Shown piece by piece: positions 53,398 to 62,304 of a stretch of 64,000 nucleotides of DNA; position 1 is the stretch's first letter; each line of letters begins with the position of its first letter. The position numbers and the translations under genes are program-made. The stretch is from the NCBI RefSeq assembly GCF_011752065.1, contig NZ_JAAIJY010000010.1, positions 1 to 64,000 of the forward strand, written 5' to 3'. A model generated the notes under the pieces. The model made no database searches. It was not told where the DNA came from and was given only the letters and a program-made list of their open reading frames with translations. The stretch comes from Actinomyces sp. ZJ308 (lineage in GTDB: Bacteria > Actinomycetota > Actinomycetes > Actinomycetales > Actinomycetaceae).

Positions 53398-53403
53398 TAT
53401 CGT
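53398..53403 (+). promoter_or_regulatory. -10 box TATCGT, leaderless start for the ClC gene
   Basis: TATCGT, 7 nt, then GTG at 53411; no Shine-Dalgarno sequence. It favours 53411 over the GTG at 53402, which lies within the -10 region. Confidence 0.55.
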
Positions 53404-53410
53404 GCCTGGG

Positions 53411-54706
53411 GTGCGCGCGCTGACCCGTCCCCGGTTCCTGGTGGCCGCCGTCCTGGCGGGCGTGACCGCGGGCCTCATCGGGATCGCGATGGCACTGCTC
53501 CTGGAGGTCTTCGAGTCACTGTTCTACGGCGTCACCCACGGCGGGCTCCTGGAGCGCCTGGCCGCGGCCCCTCCCTGGCGGCGCGTACTCGCCCCCGCCG
53601 CGGGAGGCGTCGTCGCCGGCGGCGTGTGGTGGTGGCTGCGCACCACCGGCGGGGTCGCCGACGTGGAGACCGCCGTTGCGGACTCCTCCGGGAGGGCCGC
53701 CTCCCGGATGGGGCTCGCGCGCCCGTTCGTCGACGCCGTGAACCAGGTCCTCACCGTCGGCTCGGGCAACTCGGTGGGTCGGGAGGGCGCCCCGCGTCTG
53801 GCCGCCGGGGCCGTGGCGGCCCGACTCGTCGCCCGTCTGGGGATCGGAGGCGCCGACGGGGCGATCCTCATCGCCTCGGCCGCCGGGGCGGGCCTGGCCG
53901 CCATGTACAACGCGCCGCTGGGCGGGGCGGCCTACGCCGTCGAGCTCGTCATGGTCACCGGGATGCGGCGGCGCGGGGTCGCCGTGGCGGTTCCGGTCTG
54001 CGTCATCGCCACGCTCGTCTCCTGGCTGCACTCCCACGGGCGCCCGACCTTCGGGATCGCCTCGCCGGGGCCGTCACCGGCAACCGCGCTCGGACTGGTC
54101 GCGGTGGTGCCGGTGGCCGCCGCTCTGGGCGTGGGGGCCAGACGGCTGTGGTCCTGGATGCTGCGGCGCCGGGTTCGCGCCGCACGGTGGCTGCCCGCGG
54201 CGATCGGGGCGGCGGGGCTGGTCACCGGGCTGGTGAGCCTGTGGATCCCGGCCGTCGTCGGCAACGGCCGCGACGCCATGGAAGTGGCCCTGAGCGCCGC
54301 GGACGCCCAGGTCGGCGCCCCGGGTCCGGCCCTGGTCATGCTGCTGGGGGTCGTCGCCCTCAAGCCGGTCCTCACCGGCCTCACGCTCGGGGCCGGCGCC
54401 ACCGGCGGTCGCCTGGCCCCGTCCCTGGCCGCGGGCTCGAGCGCCGGGGCCGCCCTGGCACTCGCGCTACAGGCCGGCGGGATGGAGGCGAGTGTGCCGG
54501 TGCTGGCACTGGCGGGTGCCGGCGCCGTCCTCGCCACGACCCAGAAGGCCCCGGTCTTCGGGATCGTCTTCACCTGGGAGCTGGCCCGCGCCGGGTCCTG
54601 GACTCTGGTGGCACTGATCGTCGTCGTCCTCGCCGTCACCGCACTGACCACGCCGGCTTACTTCGGCAATTTATATCGCGTGTTTTACAAACCACAGACA
54701 ACATAG
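53411..54706 (+). CDS. ClC-family chloride channel/antiporter
   Basis: 431 residues, about ten to twelve helices. Selectivity motifs: GSGNSVGREGAPR (gating Glu125), ASAAGAGLAAMYNAPLGGAA, GAGATGGRLAPSLAAGSSAG and TQKAPVFGIVFTWELA. No CBS domains. ClC proteins exchange chloride (some fluoride) for protons; the GREG sequence is the chloride type. The last residues (YFGNLYRVFYKPQTT) are encoded by DNA that turns abruptly AT-rich after about 54660, so the native C-terminus has probably been replaced at a recombination junction. Confidence 0.88.
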   Translation: MRALTRPRFLVAAVLAGVTAGLIGIAMALLLEVFESLFYGVTHGGLLERLAAAPPWRRVLAPAAGGVVAGGVWWWLRTTGGVADVETAVADSSGRAASRMGLARPFVDAVNQVLTVGSGNSVGREGAPRLAAGAVAARLVARLGIGGADGAILIASAAGAGLAAMYNAPLGGAAYAVELVMVTGMRRRGVAVAVPVCVIATLVSWLHSHGRPTFGIASPGPSPATALGLVAVVPVAAALGVGARRLWSWMLRRRVRAARWLPAAIGAAGLVTGLVSLWIPAVVGNGRDAMEVALSAADAQVGAPGPALVMLLGVVALKPVLTGLTLGAGATGGRLAPSLAAGSSAGAALALALQAGGMEASVPVLALAGAGAVLATTQKAPVFGIVFTWELARAGSWTLVALIVVVLAVTALTTPAYFGNLYRVFYKPQTT

Positions 54707-55954: not shown

Positions 55955-56809
55955 ATGCGCCGTCATCACGACAACGCCCCGCCTCGCCACGCCGCGCCAC
56001 CTCACCGCGCATGGCACGCCGGCGACGGCACCGGGCGTCCGCCGGCTTCAGGTGGCGCCGTCGCCATCTCCCTCATCCTGCTCGCCGGGTCCCCGGCGCT
56101 GGGAACCGCCCTGGCTCTCCTCCAGGGACCGTGGATCCTCATGCTCCCGGTCCTTCACCTCGGCGGCCTGATGCTCTGGGTGGGGCCGCTCCATCGTGGC
56201 TGGCGCGACCTCGTCGCCTCCGGCAGCACCCACAGCCGAACCGCGCTCTTCACCGCCGGCGCCCTGGCTGGAATCGCCTTCGGCGGCCTGCACGCCTGGA
56301 TGGGGCCGACGGGCACCGGCCCCCTGTGGAAGCCGGAGATCACCGCATCCACGCTGCTCCATGCCCTGGTCTTCGCCGTCTCGGTGGGCATCGTGTACAA
56401 CGCGCTCCCCGAGGAGATCACCCTGCGACGCACCCTGTTCGCGCCCGTGCACGAGCGCCTCGGGGCCACCGCGGCGGTGCTGGTGACCACGGCCTCCTTC
56501 ACCGCCCTGCACCTTCCGACCTGGCTGACCTCGCAGACCAGCGCCGGCGGCTACGCCTGGCAGGTCCTTCACAAGGTGCTCTTCGGACTCCTCGCCGGCT
56601 GGTCGGTGGTGCGGCTGCGGTCGGTCTTCTTCGCCCTGGGGCTGCACGTCAGCGGCAACGCGCTGGGCCTGTTCATCGGCCAGCTTCAGAGCGAGAACCT
56701 TCCCGACTTCGAGATCTCGTGGCTCAACGCCGCCATCCTGCTGATCGGCGCAGCCGTCACCACCGCCTTCATCCACCTCCTGGGCCGACGACGAGGCCGA
56801 GGGACCTGA
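55955..56809 (+). CDS. CPBP-family intramembrane metalloprotease, copy 2
   Basis: 284 residues with a His/Arg-rich N-terminus, about seven membrane segments and the CPBP core: LPEEITLRRTLF (Glu153, Glu154, Arg158), FTALHLPTW (His186) and GLHVSGNALG (His231, Asn235). It matches the copy at 52474 almost motif for motif (FGLLAGWSVVRLRSVFFALG against FGLVAGWSVLRLDSLAFALG), so the two are paralogues separated by the ClC gene and the AT-rich island. GGAG precedes the ATG. Ends 4 bp from the convergent SDR gene with no terminator between. Confidence 0.85.
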   Translation: MRRHHDNAPPRHAAPPHRAWHAGDGTGRPPASGGAVAISLILLAGSPALGTALALLQGPWILMLPVLHLGGLMLWVGPLHRGWRDLVASGSTHSRTALFTAGALAGIAFGGLHAWMGPTGTGPLWKPEITASTLLHALVFAVSVGIVYNALPEEITLRRTLFAPVHERLGATAAVLVTTASFTALHLPTWLTSQTSAGGYAWQVLHKVLFGLLAGWSVVRLRSVFFALGLHVSGNALGLFIGQLQSENLPDFEISWLNAAILLIGAAVTTAFIHLLGRRRGRGT

Positions 56810-56813
56810 GGAC

Positions 56814-57521
56814 TCAGGCCCAGCCCTGGGCGGTGGGGACCACCTCGATGTCGCGAACGACGACGTCCTGGGGCAGGTTCAGCTGGTGGTGCACGATCGT
56901 GGCGATGTCTTGCGGGTGCAGGGGCGCTGAGGCGATCTGCTCGGTCACCGCGGGGATGTCCCGCCCCTTGGTGGCCGCTGTCTCCACGTAGCCGATCGCG
57001 ATCGTGCGTGAGCGCACCCGGTCGGCTCGCAGCTCCACCCGCAGCTGCTCCCCCAGGGCGTTGCGGGCGGCCGCCGTGGCCCCGTAGACGGCCGCGTGCT
57101 CGAAGGCGACGTCGCTGGCGATGGAGCCGATGACGATGATGTCGGCGACCCCTCGGGCCTCGGCGGCCCGCCTGAGGGCGGGCAGGAGGAGGCGCGCCGC
57201 CCTGAGGACGGTGGCGATGTCGGTGGTCATGCCCTCGACCCACTCCTCGGCCTCCCTGGAGTCGAAGGGGCCGCCCAGCATCCCGCCCGCGCTCGTCACG
57301 AGGGCGTCGACCGTCCCCTCCTCGCGCACGATGCGCTCCAGGGCCTCGTGAGTGGCGTCGGCGTCCTTGAGATCGCAGCGCACGACACGCGCATCGATCT
57401 CACTGAGCGGCTCCTGACGGTCGACGACGACGGTGTTCCAGCCCTCGGCCGCGGCCCGCTGGGCAATGGCCAGGCCGATGCCGGAGGCGCCTCCGGTGAC
57501 GACGATCGTGCGAGGGCTCAT
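56814..57521 (-). CDS. SDR-fold protein lacking the catalytic lysine (1)
   Basis: 235 residues of short-chain dehydrogenase/reductase type: nucleotide motif TGGASGIG (9-16), acidic residue after strand 2 (VVVDRQ), CDLKDAD, SAGG, then Ser133 and Tyr146. The active-site motif reads YGATA, so the lysine of YxxxK (position 150) is alanine. NAD(P) binding seems intact but oxidoreductase activity is doubtful. Third gene of the operon SDR - nhaA - SDR; its ATG overlaps the nhaA stop as ATGA. It could be a nucleotide-sensing or structural partner of the antiporter; that is inference. Confidence 0.85.
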   Translation of the reverse strand: MSPRTIVVTGGASGIGLAIAQRAAAEGWNTVVVDRQEPLSEIDARVVRCDLKDADATHEALERIVREEGTVDALVTSAGGMLGGPFDSREAEEWVEGMTTDIATVLRAARLLLPALRRAAEARGVADIIVIGSIASDVAFEHAAVYGATAAARNALGEQLRVELRADRVRSRTIAIGYVETAATKGRDIPAVTEQIASAPLHPQDIATIVHHQLNLPQDVVVRDIEVVPTAQGWA

Positions 57522-59416
57522 GCCTTACCTCCTGCTGCTCCGGGGACATCGGCTGTCTGACAGGGCTGCTGGGCCTGCTCGTCCTGCTGCTCGAGGGCGT
57601 GCCTGGCCTCCTCCAGCGCGGCGATGAGGTGATCGGTCTCGGCCGGTCCCTCGTAGATCTCGCCGTTGATGAAGAAGGTCGGGGCCGTGGTCAGCCCCAG
57701 CGAGATGGCGTCGTCGGCGTCGTCGTGCACCCGCGGGGCGTGGACCTGCTGACGCATGGCCTCCTCCAGACGCGGCAGGTTCGCTCCGACGTCGATGGCT
57801 GCGCGCCGCAGCATCTGCTGATCGAGCTCCTCGTCCTGGCACAGGCGGCTGAGCTCCTGACGCATGGGCGAGAACAGCTCCCGGCTCTGGGCGCTGACGG
57901 CCTCGATGACGAGGGCGGCCTGCTCCGCCGCGGGGTCGCCCATGGGGTTGTGGCGGTAGACGAAGCGCAGCTCGGGCCCGAAGTGGTCGCGCAGCTCCTG
58001 GACGATGTCGTCGATCGCGGCATCGTCCAGGTCGCCCAGGCGGCCGTACTCCACGAGGGTGAGCGGGGCGTTGACCGGACCGTCGATGTGGTCGCGCTCG
58101 GGGTCGACCGGCCGGTTGAGACGCTTGTGGGCGGGGGCGTGCTGGACGTCGTAGCGCGCCGTGGCGGACATGGCGATCATGCCGAGCACCGCCGAGAGCA
58201 GGGAGGCGGCCAGCACGCCGATCCGTGCCTCGGACTGCAGGACGGGGTCCTCCAGGGCCAGGTCCACGATGAACAGCGAGATGGTGAAGCCGATCCCGGT
58301 GAGGATCGATCCGGCGCCGACGTGCCGGTAGCCGACGCCCGGCGCCAGCTCGCCGATCCGCAGCTTGGTCGCCAGGACGGTCGCGCCGTAGATGCCCACC
58401 ACCTTCCCGACGACCAGGCCGACGATGATGCCCCAGGTCAGCGGCGAGGTGAAGGCCTGCTTGAGGGTCTGCGGGGTGATGATGACGCCCGCGTTGGACA
58501 GGGCGAAGACCGGCACCACGACGAGGTTGACGAACGGCGCCAGCATGAGCTGGAGGCGCTCGTTGATGGACACCGAGCGCATGATGCCGTCCATGGCGGC
58601 GCTTCCGGTGGCCGCCACCGGGGTCCGGCGGAAGACGCGGGTGAGCTCCTCGGCCTGCAGGACCGCGCTGCGCTCGGGCGGGAACACCGGCAACAGCAGG
58701 CCCAGGATCACGCCGGCGATCGTGGCGTGGACGCCCGAGGCGAAGACCGCCAGCCACAGCACCACCCCGGAGATGACGTAGACGGCCATGCGGTGCGGCC
58801 TGGACTGCTGGAGCAGGAACAGCAGGAAGGCGACGACGCCCGCCACCGCCAGGGGGACCAGGTGGATGGTCTCGGTGTAGGCGGTCGCGATGACCAGCAG
58901 CGCGCCGACGTCGTCGACGACGGCCAGCGTCACGAGGAAGGCGCGCAGCTGGGTGGGAAGGCGGCTGCCGAAGACGGCCAGAATCCCCATGACGAAGGCG
59001 GTGTCGGTGGAGATGACGATTCCCCAGGCGGAGGCGCCCTCGGTTCCGGTGTTGAGCCAGAAGAAGAGGAGGGCCGGAATGATGAGGCCGGCGAGGGCGG
59101 CGATGACGGGGACGCTGGCCCGCCGCCACTCGCGCAGCTCGCCCATGATGAAGTCGTGCTTGACCTCCAGGCTCACCAGGAAGAAGAACAGCATCATGAG
59201 GGCGTCGTTGATCCAGTGCTGGAGCGACAGCCGGATCTCGGTGCTCCCCAGGGAGACCGCGAGCTCGGTGTGCCAGAAGTCCTCGTAGGAGTGCCCGCCG
59301 AGGTTGGCCCAGGCGATGGCGATGATGGTGGCGGCCAGCAGGAGGATCGCGCCGGAGGTGTCGCGGCCGCGGAAGGCGGTGTAGGCGCTGCGCACGCGCC
59401 CGATCATCCGTCCCAT
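57518..59416 (-). CDS. nhaA: Na+/H+ antiporter NhaA fused to a thioredoxin-like domain
   Basis: 632 residues. NhaA part (about 20-425), twelve helices: ISTDTAFVMG with Asp138 and LAVVDDVGALLVIA with Asp168-Asp169 match the sodium/proton-binding aspartates of E. coli NhaA; FFFLVSLEVKHDFIMGEL is also diagnostic. The C-terminal part (about 445-610) is a DsbA/Thioredoxin_4-type domain, but where the CxxC should follow VEYG the sequence is VEYGRLGDLDDAA, without cysteines; the cis-proline loop LTTAPTFFINGEIYEG is kept. NhaA-thioredoxin fusions occur in other actinobacteria. Coupled to both SDR genes (TGATG upstream, ATGA downstream). Confidence 0.93.
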   Translation of the reverse strand: MGRMIGRVRSAYTAFRGRDTSGAILLLAATIIAIAWANLGGHSYEDFWHTELAVSLGSTEIRLSLQHWINDALMMLFFFLVSLEVKHDFIMGELREWRRASVPVIAALAGLIIPALLFFWLNTGTEGASAWGIVISTDTAFVMGILAVFGSRLPTQLRAFLVTLAVVDDVGALLVIATAYTETIHLVPLAVAGVVAFLLFLLQQSRPHRMAVYVISGVVLWLAVFASGVHATIAGVILGLLLPVFPPERSAVLQAEELTRVFRRTPVAATGSAAMDGIMRSVSINERLQLMLAPFVNLVVVPVFALSNAGVIITPQTLKQAFTSPLTWGIIVGLVVGKVVGIYGATVLATKLRIGELAPGVGYRHVGAGSILTGIGFTISLFIVDLALEDPVLQSEARIGVLAASLLSAVLGMIAMSATARYDVQHAPAHKRLNRPVDPERDHIDGPVNAPLTLVEYGRLGDLDDAAIDDIVQELRDHFGPELRFVYRHNPMGDPAAEQAALVIEAVSAQSRELFSPMRQELSRLCQDEELDQQMLRRAAIDVGANLPRLEEAMRQQVHAPRVHDDADDAISLGLTTAPTFFINGEIYEGPAETDHLIAALEEARHALEQQDEQAQQPCQTADVPGAAGGKA

Positions 59417-60192
59417 CAGCGGTTCCCCACCGGCTGGATCGTGGCGCTGGCCAGGTTCACGTGGGCGGGCAGCGAGATCATGAACTCCAGCTCGTCGGCG
59501 ACCCGTTCACCCCTGATCGTCTCCGCGTCCGCCGGCATCTCGTCGACGAAGTCGTGGTGGTTGCTCGTGGACCGGTGGGCCCCGAAGTTGCTCTTGGCGA
59601 AGAAGCTCCCTGCGGTGAACATGGCCGGCAGGTGGTGGACGCGCACACCCCGCGGCCCGTACTCGGCGCGCAGGTGCTTGGCGAACTGACCGACGGAGGC
59701 GCCCAGGGAGGAGAACACGGAGTAGGCGTGCTGGCGCTCGTAGGCCGGCCCCGTCCCGATGAGGACGATGTCCGCGCGCTCACCCCGCTCCCCGGCGGCA
59801 AGGATGTCGGGGGCGAAGATCTGCACCGTCTGCAGCGTCCCGGCCAGGTTGGTGGACATCATCAGCCGCCAGTCGGCGGGGATCGCCTCCTCGAAGGGGG
59901 CGGCGCGGCGCACGCCCGCCGCGCACACGAGCAGGTCGGGCGGACCGTAGCCGGCCAGAATTCGTTCTCGGGCCTCGACGATCTCATAGGCACTGGTCAC
60001 GTCCGCGGGGCAGCTCAGCGTCCGGGCGCCGTGCGGGAGGTGCGCCTGCATCCGTTCGATCCGGCGCCGCTTGCGGGCGATGAGGGCGACCCGGAACCCG
60101 GACTCGACCAGCTTGTGGACCACGGCTGAGCCGATGGTGCCGGTGGCCCCGGTGACGACGGCGGTGCGGCCGTCGAAGTCATCTGATGGCAT
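59416..60192 (-). CDS. SDR-fold protein lacking the catalytic lysine (2)
   Basis: 258 residues. Nucleotide motif TGATGTIG (14-21), arginine-rich end of strand 2 (ARKRRR, NADP-type), CPADVTS, CAAGV. At the active site the sequence is AYSVFSSLG: Tyr157 is followed by Ser161 where lysine is required, and the usual serine about 13 residues earlier is also absent. First gene of the operon, with GAGAGGA before the ATG; its promoter must lie in 60193-60435. Only distantly similar to the SDR at the other end, so not a recent duplication. Confidence 0.83.
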   Translation of the reverse strand: MPSDDFDGRTAVVTGATGTIGSAVVHKLVESGFRVALIARKRRRIERMQAHLPHGARTLSCPADVTSAYEIVEARERILAGYGPPDLLVCAAGVRRAAPFEEAIPADWRLMMSTNLAGTLQTVQIFAPDILAAGERGERADIVLIGTGPAYERQHAYSVFSSLGASVGQFAKHLRAEYGPRGVRVHHLPAMFTAGSFFAKSNFGAHRSTSNHHDFVDEMPADAETIRGERVADELEFMISLPAHVNLASATIQPVGNR

Positions 60193-60435: not shown

Positions 60436-62304
60436 TCAGGCCCGACGGCGCAGCAGGAGCGAGTCCCAGCCGGCCAGGGACTCCGGCATGCCCACATGCC
60501 CCGAGCCCGGCTGGACGTCCGGGTCGCCGGCGCGCAGAACCTGCTCGGCCCGCGCCCACTGTTCCGGCTCCAGGCCCTCGGCCGCGAGCGCCACCAGCAG
60601 GCCGCCCTCACCGGTCAGTGGCAGCTCCTCGCGGGAGCACTGGGCGATGAGCAGCAGCTGCTCCAGGTGGCCGCCGTCCTCCTCGGGGGCGCGCCACCGG
60701 CGCGCGATGACCCATGCGGTGGGGTGGTCGGCCGCCAGCAGCCGGAAGGTGCCCAGGGCGAGGGCGGCGTCGTCGTGCCGCAGGGCGATGAGGCTGCGGT
60801 AGTGCTCGAAGACGGATCCGGGCACGCCCACCTGGGCGGCGGCGTTGACGGTTCCGTGGTCGGGGGCCAGGTCGATCCAGGGCTCGCCGGTGGTGAAGCC
60901 GGCCCTCTCGCTGGAGTCCCACTGGACGGGGGTGCGGGCGTTGTCCCGGGAGATGGGCGCCAGTCCGGCCAGGACGGCGGCCGGGTCGTCTCCGGCGCGC
61001 ACGCGCTCGTGGAAGTGGTTGACGGACTCCAGGTCCCGGTAGTCCTCGATGCCGCGGAAGACCGTGTTGGCCATGCCGAGCTCCTCGCCCTGGTAGACGT
61101 AGGGGGTGCCGCGGTGGGTGTGGAGGATCGTGGCCAGGGTCTTGGCCGAGCGGACGCGCCAGGCGGGGTCGTCGTCGCCGAATCGGGAGACGGCGCGGGG
61201 CTGGTCGTGGTTGTCCCAGTAGGCCGAGTTCCAGCCCTTCTCCGCCGCAACGACGCCGGAGGGCTCCGTGACGGGGGCCAGGGCGGCCTGCCAGTCGGCC
61301 AGGTTGGTCTTGAGGGTGACCAGGTCGAGGGGGCGGGGGTCGAACTTGCCTCCCGGCCCGTCGGTGAGGCTGACGTGCTCGAACTGGAAGACCATGTCGA
61401 GCTCGGCGCGGGCGGGGTCGGTGTAGAGGGCGGCCTCGGACCGCGTGGCCCCGGGCATCTCCCCGACGGTGATGACGTGGCCGGGGCGGGGCGCGAGGAC
61501 CTGCTGGTTCATCTCGCGGAGGAACTCGTGGATGCGCGGGCCGTTGGCCACGGCGGCGAAGGCGTTGCCATAGAGGTCGCCCTCGCCCTGGGGCGCGTCG
61601 GTGAGCGGGTGGGTCTTGGAGATGAAGTTGATGACGTCCATGCGGAAGCCGTCGACGCCGCGGTCCAGCCACCAGGTCATCGTCTCGTGGACGGCGCGGC
61701 GCACCTCGGGGTTCTCCCAGTTGAGGTCGGGCTGCTTGGGTGAGAAGAGGTGCAGGTAGAACTCCTGGGTGCCCTCGTCCCAGGCCCAGGCCGACCCGGA
61801 GAAGGCCGACCCCCAGTTGGTGGGCTCGGTGCCCGGCTGCCCGGGGTCCAGTCCGTCGACCTGTCGGGCGGGCCGCCAGATGTACCAATCGCGTTGGGGG
61901 TCCTGCTTGGAGGAGCGGCTGGCGGCGAACCAGGGGTGCTCGTCGCTGGTGTGGTTGACGACGAGGTCCATGACCAGGCGCATGCCGCGGGCGTGGAGAG
62001 CCTCGATGAGGGCGTCGAGGTCGTCCAGGGTGCCGAAGAGGGGGTCGATGTCCTGGTAGTCGGAGATGTCGTAGCCGTTGTCGTCCTGCGGGGAGCGGTA
62101 GACGGGGCTGAGCCACACGACGTCGATGCCCAGCTCGTCGAGGTGGTCCAGGCGGCTGGTCAGTCCCGGGATGTCGCCGATCCCGTCGCCGTTGGAGTCG
62201 GCGAAGGAGCGGGGGTAGACCTGGTAGACGACGGCGCGGCGCCACCAGTCGGGCTCGTCGCCGACGTGGTGGGCTGAGACGACCAGGGGTGCGGGACGGG
62301 GCAT
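60436..62304 (-). CDS. alpha-glucosidase / oligo-1,6-glucosidase (GH13)
   Basis: 622 residues, cytoplasmic. WWRRAVVYQVYPRSFADSNG at the start, LVMDLVVNHTSDEHPWF, nucleophile Asp223 in VDGFRMDVINF, acid Glu282 in TVGEMPG, and Asp367 in WDNHDQPR. Valine straight after the nucleophile (DVIN) is the mark of alpha-1,6-specific enzymes (isomaltase, dextran glucosidase), so isomalto-oligosaccharides are the predicted substrate, such as those left by debranching. Ribosome binding site GGAAGGAAGG. Divergent from the GH31 gene with which it probably shares regulation. Confidence 0.92.
   Translation of the reverse strand: MPRPAPLVVSAHHVGDEPDWWRRAVVYQVYPRSFADSNGDGIGDIPGLTSRLDHLDELGIDVVWLSPVYRSPQDDNGYDISDYQDIDPLFGTLDDLDALIEALHARGMRLVMDLVVNHTSDEHPWFAASRSSKQDPQRDWYIWRPARQVDGLDPGQPGTEPTNWGSAFSGSAWAWDEGTQEFYLHLFSPKQPDLNWENPEVRRAVHETMTWWLDRGVDGFRMDVINFISKTHPLTDAPQGEGDLYGNAFAAVANGPRIHEFLREMNQQVLAPRPGHVITVGEMPGATRSEAALYTDPARAELDMVFQFEHVSLTDGPGGKFDPRPLDLVTLKTNLADWQAALAPVTEPSGVVAAEKGWNSAYWDNHDQPRAVSRFGDDDPAWRVRSAKTLATILHTHRGTPYVYQGEELGMANTVFRGIEDYRDLESVNHFHERVRAGDDPAAVLAGLAPISRDNARTPVQWDSSERAGFTTGEPWIDLAPDHGTVNAAAQVGVPGSVFEHYRSLIALRHDDAALALGTFRLLAADHPTAWVIARRWRAPEEDGGHLEQLLLIAQCSREELPLTGEGGLLVALAAEGLEPEQWARAEQVLRAGDPDVQPGSGHVGMPESLAGWDSLLLRRRA

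Follow-up and report, generated by a model that had tools for sequence, protein, structure and literature searches.

Sequence comparison gives good support for a conserved and selected set of short-chain dehydrogenase/reductase (SDR) pseudoenzymes tied to an NhaA-thioredoxin fusion, a Na+/H+ antiporter with a thioredoxin-like domain at its C-terminal side. The set was recognized in a 64,000-nucleotide stretch of DNA from Actinomyces sp. ZJ308 (hereafter the window; genome G000, 3.28 Mb), in which reading of the open reading frames (ORFs) gave a minus-strand trio in the gene order SDR2, NhaA-thioredoxin fusion and SDR1, located on contig C79 and designated below as the cassette. A preliminary description of this DNA had proposed a search of genomes for SDR genes beside nhaA-thioredoxin together with an alignment of their YxxxK positions, and such a search yielded the cassette in 11 genomes. 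The catalytic Lys is absent from all 21 SDRs linked to the fusion in these genomes, and is present in all 62 homologues outside the cassette.

Organization of the cassette and catalytic residues of its SDRs

The three genes overlap one another at the junctions TGATG and ATGA, as had been described and as the minus-strand ORFs confirm. The features of the cassette, with positions in the window, are as follows.

59416..60192, minus strand: SDR2, the predicted upstream SDR pseudoenzyme, 258 amino acids; loop TGATGTIG; catalytic Ser replaced by T147, Tyr by F160 and Lys by G164
59701..59715, minus strand: F160-x3-G164 of SDR2, the true YxxxK position according to alignments with canonical SDRs
59414..59418, minus strand: stop/start overlap TGATG between SDR2 and NhaA, one base in common
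57518..59416, minus strand: NhaA-thioredoxin fusion, 632 amino acids, assigned by Pfam and TIGR00773
58142..59374, minus strand: NhaA domain, amino acids 15-425; D138, D168, D169, H230 and K338 intact
57611..58072, minus strand: degenerate thioredoxin (Thioredoxin_4/DSBA-like) domain, amino acids 449-602; 27.4 bits against a cut-off of 23.2
58022..58033, minus strand: former CXXC site, now D462-L-D-D465
57518..57521, minus strand: stop/start overlap ATGA between NhaA and SDR1, 4 bases
56814..57521, minus strand: SDR1, the predicted downstream SDR pseudoenzyme, 235 amino acids; TGGASGIG loop; beta-2 ending in D34; S133 and Y146 retained, A150 in place of Lys
57072..57086, minus strand: Y146-GAT-A150 of SDR1, the YxxxK position with K replaced by A

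In the Pfam scan, adh_short (PF00106) was detected in both SDRs (116.2 and 104.7 bits against a cut-off of 26.6), and the fusion carried Na_H_antiport_1, Thioredoxin_4 and DSBA at E <= 0.001, the thioredoxin match being weak. The NhaA family model TIGR00773 of NCBIfam also matched the fusion (326.4 bits, cut-off 254).

SDR1 retains Ser133 and Tyr146 and carries A150 at the Lys position. In SDR2, alignments with canonical SDRs place T147 at the position of Ser, F160 at that of Tyr and G164 at that of Lys, and its catalytic helix aligns free of gaps (FSSLGASVGQFAKHLRAEYG against, for example, YGATKAAITHLSQCLRTEFG of the unlinked homologue L098); SDR2 is therefore the more degenerate of the two SDRs in the window. 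The YxxxK lysine had thus been reported correctly as missing from both proteins, but the sequence YSVFS, then taken as the motif of SDR2, is off by three residues, and SDR2 has lost its Tyr as well. By the usual SDR mechanism, catalysis should be crippled without this Lys.

The same positions were read in all linked SDRs. At Ser/Tyr/Lys the 11 upstream SDRs carry TFG (five), AFS (two), AYE (two), SFS (one) and SFG (one), and the 10 downstream SDRs carry SYA (eight), AYA (one) and SYS (one), so that the Lys position is occupied by A, S, G or E. All 62 homologues outside the cassette carry SYK. Thinning by shared 4-mers had reduced the unlinked homologues from 108 to 62, all of which have Tyr and Lys; for the final outside set, also of 62, six long-branch rows (which likewise carry Tyr and Lys) gave way to five new ones and to the third SDR of G1186, a YSGTK protein encoded 1.7 kb downstream of the cassette of that genome. 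Hence the close homologues bearing the YxxxK motif lie outside the cassette, and the substitutions, seen in 11 genomes, are not specific to one strain; on the main point, both outcomes favour the conserved pseudoenzyme set proposed earlier over its stated refutations. An ordinary operon of active SDRs is ruled out by this split, in which Lys is lacking from 21 of 21 linked and 0 of 62 other SDRs.

Distribution and linkage of the cassette

The 11 genomes are G000 (the window genome), G044, G020, G016, G1232, two of Propionibacteriaceae, G693, G1186, G1277 and G1271; nine have the order SDR-NhaA-SDR, one has SDR-SDR-NhaA and one has a single SDR. Since samples of the larger groups were searched, this range is a minimum. 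Among 149 relatives, the triad was found in the window genome, G044, G020 and G016. When genome contigs were scanned with the alignment of SDR2, 83 stretches matched and five related loci emerged; three of them hold the triad, in an Actinomyces metagenome-assembled genome (MAG), a Propionibacteriaceae MAG and [Pseudopropionibacterium] massiliense; the Actinomyces MAG locus (L092) lies on the contig already seen in G016, belongs to that same genome and was counted once. The NhaA profile at 1e-80 matched 27 of 198 Propionibacteriaceae genomes, among them G693, whose upstream SDR, with Ala for Ser, Phe for Tyr and Ser for Lys, overlaps NhaA by GTGA and in which no downstream SDR stands beside NhaA. 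Matches were obtained in 21 of 396 genomes of the order of the window, giving G1232 and G1186 as further cassettes, and in 13 of 111 genomes of the family of G1186, adding G1277 and G1271.

The gene order in G1271 is SDRb-SDRa-NhaA; the order is altered and the three genes are still together, which argues that linkage is kept rather than one frozen order. The upstream SDR gene overlaps NhaA in 10 of the 11 cassettes and abuts it in G1232, with putative GTG starts.

SDR neighbours were sought at 54 NhaA loci (about 1.5 kb to either side, contig ends permitting), at two more cassettes and in 17 larger regions, while NhaA neighbours were sought at the SDR loci retrieved, a subset of all SDR matches. 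The 17 larger regions surround non-cassette NhaA genes and extend to about 5 kb unless the contig ended sooner, and 16 of them were without an SDR by a general SDR profile. In a phylum sample of 396 genomes, six other genomes reached the threshold, their six loci lacking such an NhaA; in the order to which G537 belongs (391 genomes), 28 of the 30 loci retrieved were unlinked and the remaining two were cassettes already known.

Upstream of eight other cassettes (G1277 and G1271 lying outside this search), no riboswitch or other element reached the gathering threshold save a tRNA in L145, and the only two matches in the window stretch scored far under the gathering scores. No clear block of conserved DNA was seen across seven of the 11 upstream regions. 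Plasmid records matching some part of the triad numbered 39, none spanning 80% of it. Sequence comparison suggests horizontal transfer of the cassette. In the trees, NhaA and SDR2 of the Actinomyces-type cassettes are about as near to [Pseudopropionibacterium] massiliense as to one another across the genus.

Selection on the three proteins

All three proteins are maintained by selection, because the ratio of nonsynonymous to synonymous substitution rates (dN/dS) is low in both close pairs: 0.264 for SDR2, 0.206 for NhaA and 0.170 for SDR1 between the window genome and G044, and 0.113, 0.121 and 0.194, respectively, between G020 and G016. The dead thioredoxin domain of the fusion is under constraint no weaker than that on the NhaA domain (0.137 and 0.052 for the thioredoxin domain, 0.176 and 0.117 for the NhaA domain, in the same two pairs). 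Distant pairs gave higher and less reliable values, up to 0.57 (SDR1). Strain-specific decay into pseudogenes is ruled out by these ratios and by the conservation, with the exception of SDR2 of [Pseudopropionibacterium] massiliense (L094:6992-7773), which has a frameshift near its 3' end that may reflect a sequencing error or the onset of decay; the other two genes of this locus, NhaA and SDR1, are open.

The antiporter and its thioredoxin domain

Residues E84, D138, D168, D169, H230 and K338 are present in all 11 cassette NhaA proteins and align with the matching stretches of E. coli NhaA. We take D168/D169 to be the transport Asp pair, D138 the Asp of transmembrane segment IV and K338 the Lys of segment X. 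The aspartates of NhaA had been described as intact, and the alignment bears this out for D138, D168 and D169. The thioredoxin domain, on the other hand, is not free of cysteines as had been stated: C526 lies in the thioredoxin part and C619 in the tail of the window fusion, and only the CXXC pair is gone (D462-L-D-D465). CXXC is absent from the fusions of all 11 cassettes.

A tree built from the NhaA part of 56 proteins groups all 11 cassette proteins in a single clade (Shimodaira-Hasegawa-like approximate likelihood ratio test, SH-aLRT, 97). A second clade (SH-aLRT 100) holds 20 fusions that have neither CXXC nor an SDR neighbour; CXXC is kept in 25 of the 56, its loss amounting to two changes. 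An SDR neighbour within about 1.5 kb was found for 9 of 29 fusions without CXXC versus none of 25 with CXXC (54 loci), and the same lack of CXXC was seen in the two cassettes discovered afterwards. The decay of the thioredoxin site had been treated as part of the same story as the SDRs; the 20 fusions that lost CXXC with no SDR beside them separate the two, and CXXC loss as a sign of SDR partnership is thereby ruled out. The window genome itself carries a second NhaA-thioredoxin gene (C27:180-1931; L002, L104), 39% identical and devoid of CXXC, which falls in the clade of 20. No SDR was found in the 5 kb downstream of it, the other side being the end of contig C27.

Glycine-rich loop and fold of the SDRs

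Of the 21 cassette SDRs, 17 were examined at the loop and at beta-2, and all 17 keep loop glycines 2 and 8 plus a glycine at position 5 or 6. The glycine-rich loops described for both window SDRs are indeed there, TGGASGIG of SDR1 following the classical TGxxxGxG, but TGATGTIG of SDR2 has the spacing TGxxGxxG. The latter spacing is found in extended and atypical SDRs. Asp at the end of beta-2, as in SDR1 (D34), is presumably an NAD-type signature, and SDR2 of the Actinomyces-type cassette has Ala-Arg there, called an NADP-type signature.

The structure model of SDR2 (predicted local distance difference test, pLDDT, 71.6) gave 2jah_C as its best fold match (Z 26.6; root-mean-square deviation 2.8; 225 residues aligned). 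Ranks 3 and 7 among its fold matches were the PDB entries 3lf1 and 3lf2, the title naming an NADPH-binding SDR whose catalytic centre is atypical.

Origin of the two SDRs and loss of the lysine

The two SDRs had been called unrelated, a view that we abandon: SDR1 and SDR2 are homologues, with 31% identity over 139 amino acids (E 1e-13 for a single comparison), and may be duplicates of one another. In the free SDR trees two losses of Lys are needed, which suggests an independent recruitment of the two; the trees with all cassette SDRs placed in one clade are slightly likelier (likelihood higher by 4.67 and 7.58; p-values of the approximately unbiased test 0.576 and 0.632), so that a single clade is not rejected. 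The site thus probably saw one or two old losses of Lys followed by drift, and Lys did not come back in any of the 21 rows.

Two canonical SDRs (YSGTK) from the subfamily of the cassette proteins were observed at L204:9989-10768 (G1186, 1.7 kb from the cassette) and L225:1159-2031 (G1277, about 7 kb away), the former sitting behind a gene that resembles, by eye, a helix-turn-helix regulator. These YSGTK proteins are possible living relatives of the ancestor.

Possible roles of the SDRs

Our best explanation is that SDR2 and SDR1 are non-catalytic subunits that bind NhaA and regulate its exchange, most likely through occupancy by NAD(P)(H), a proposal that we rate as quite plausible, if somewhat short of probable. 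It is drawn from the coupling of the genes, the intact antiporter and the retention of the SDR fold. Both SDR-fold subunits would be produced together with the Na+/H+ antiporter and bind to it, acting on it much as KefF acts on KefC. The C-terminus of NhaA is cytoplasmic, and the docking site would most likely be the thioredoxin-fold tail on that side. Binding and release of NAD(P)(H) would then set the exchange through occupancy and conformation instead of hydride transfer. The physical complex, the docking on the tail, the nucleotide binding and the gating are all steps that we infer from sequence. PMC11150392 was counted in favour of a regulatory role. A more specific form, which we consider unlikely, is that an NAD-type SDR1 and an NADP-type SDR2 make a heteromeric gate on the thioredoxin platform, the exchange reading the NAD(H)/NADP(H) balance; if true, this would be a redox-sensing antiporter of which the control parts are all retired oxidoreductases.

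Several findings weigh against regulation by nucleotide-binding SDRs. The classical spacing TGxxxGxG is kept in 9 of the 17 cassette SDRs read versus 62 of 62 others, and the two window SDRs lack the NNAG motif (CAAG, TSAG), the full motif being present in just 28 of the 62 others. The catalytic Lys of SDRs also contacts the nicotinamide ribose; with this residue gone and the loop spacing shifted, cofactor binding in the cassette SDRs may be weakened or lost. The beta-2 end of the upstream SDRs is mixed (A in seven, D in two of nine), so the cofactor preference is not conserved among them; this rules out a common NADP or NAD type. SDR1 was modelled poorly (pLDDT 54.9), and its model was left unused. 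The lysine split represents one or two evolutionary events, not 21: kinship inflates it, because the tree needs two losses only and a single origin is not rejected. As to distribution, within the genus the SDR1 profile matches 4 of 49 genomes (counting that of the window), and some NhaA match is found in 107 of the 149 relatives; with the cassette in few relatives and NhaA in many, NhaA generally needs no such partners. Finally, two ordinary SDRs occur near a CXXC-bearing fusion in G138 (L114), neither being adjacent: YNASK at L114:2-772, 4.1 kb upstream of the fusion, and YAVSK at L114:9133-9837, 1.8 kb downstream on the other strand.

Some of the same observations can be read in other ways. 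It is rather unlikely, yet to be taken seriously, that the SDRs are purely structural or assembly partners that stabilize or cap the degenerate thioredoxin tail with no nucleotide signal. SDRs are natural dimers and tetramers, and such a role would fit with the drift of the catalytic positions (TFG, AFS, AYE, SFS and SFG in the upstream SDRs) while the genes stay linked and selected, and with the absence of classical loop spacing in 8 of 17; the glycine-rich loop in all 17 rows is, however, beyond the need of a scaffold, although folding could also keep it. That the SDRs sense some ligand distinct from NAD(P)(H), bound in the former substrate pocket, and relay the signal to NhaA in the way of glutathione adducts on Kef seems improbable to us. 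This reading draws on the segment TAGxFFAxSNFGAxRxTSxHHD that four SDR2 rows share after the catalytic helix, unseen in the legible unlinked homologues L036, L097, L098, L100 and L102, but mostly missing in L093 and G693.

We doubt still more that the SDRs are working enzymes, with a Lys-free site served by another proton donor or with a non-redox reaction. Ser and Tyr are kept in 9 of the 10 downstream SDRs (Lys to Ala in eight, Lys to Ser in one), and the atypical SDR of 3lf1/3lf2 is among the best fold matches; the Tyr is also gone, however, from 9 of the 11 upstream SDRs, and the variety of A, S, G and E at the Lys position is unlike a re-evolved active site. Least credible of all is a coincidental co-transcription of SDRs unrelated to the function of NhaA. 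Even if 45 of the 54 NhaA fusion loci have no adjacent SDR and ordinary SDRs can fall near a fusion by chance, as in G138, such an accident agrees poorly with a linkage held in 11 genomes and across a change of gene order, with an upstream junction overlapping in 10, and with a lysine split by linkage that is complete.

Comparison with known systems

The nearest parallels are the glutathione-gated K+ efflux systems KefC-KefF and KefB-KefG, in which a cation/proton antiporter with a cytoplasmic tail has a soluble, NAD(P)H-using partner of oxidoreductase type, encoded 5' of the antiporter with an overlap of a few bases. Catalysis by the Kef partner is not directly required for activation (PMC10224563). 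The cassette differs from Kef in that its antiporter is NhaA (PF06965), its tail a thioredoxin fold instead of an RCK/KTN domain (none was detected in the Pfam scan at E <= 0.001), and its partners, usually two, adh_short SDRs without the catalytic Lys instead of flavodoxin-fold quinone reductases with flavin mononucleotide. Relative to such partners, the evolution of the cassette would have gone one step beyond, with catalysis removed.

NhaA, whose gating by pH is well known, is the classic example of a Na+/H+ antiporter. The cassette protein shares family and transport residues with E. coli NhaA, which is not known to have a thioredoxin tail or SDR partners. The NhaA-thioredoxin fusion is known as an architecture, and the cassette has it in common with other actinobacterial (DsbA-like) fusions, CXXC being kept in 25 of the 54 loci; its own clade lacks CXXC and has SDR partners, unlike the clade of 20, without CXXC and with no SDR neighbours. 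The SDRs resemble the classical ones (PF00106) in family by Pfam and in fold by structure match, and depart from them in the absence of the catalytic Lys from both, and of the Tyr from SDR2. In heteromeric SDRs such as BbsCD, an inactive subunit is kept beside an active SDR; the cassette is alike in retaining a dead SDR as a putative partner subunit, but both of its SDRs have lost catalytic residues, and the putative partner is an ion transporter.

Among titles and abstract openings in the PubMed Central literature, which leaves most subscription journals outside, no report of NhaA with an SDR partner was found. What appears to be new here is the drawing of ancillary antiporter subunits from another oxidoreductase family, the SDRs, with dead active sites. 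If our interpretation holds, an NhaA clade with dead SDR subunits would link sodium/proton exchange to a metabolic signal. The cassette would then provide a natural set of SDR pseudoenzymes, in which loss of catalysis tracks the new partnership, and a simple test system of three genes, a transport assay and a nucleotide-binding assay.

Neighbouring genes in the window

A CLC chloride channel gene (53402-54706) neighbours the cassette, and a CAAX-protease-like gene (55955-56809), convergent with SDR1, also adjoins the cassette of G044. Upstream of the cassette, on the same strand and across a gap of 243 bp, lies an alpha-amylase-family gene (60436-62304), near a phosphotrehalase gene.

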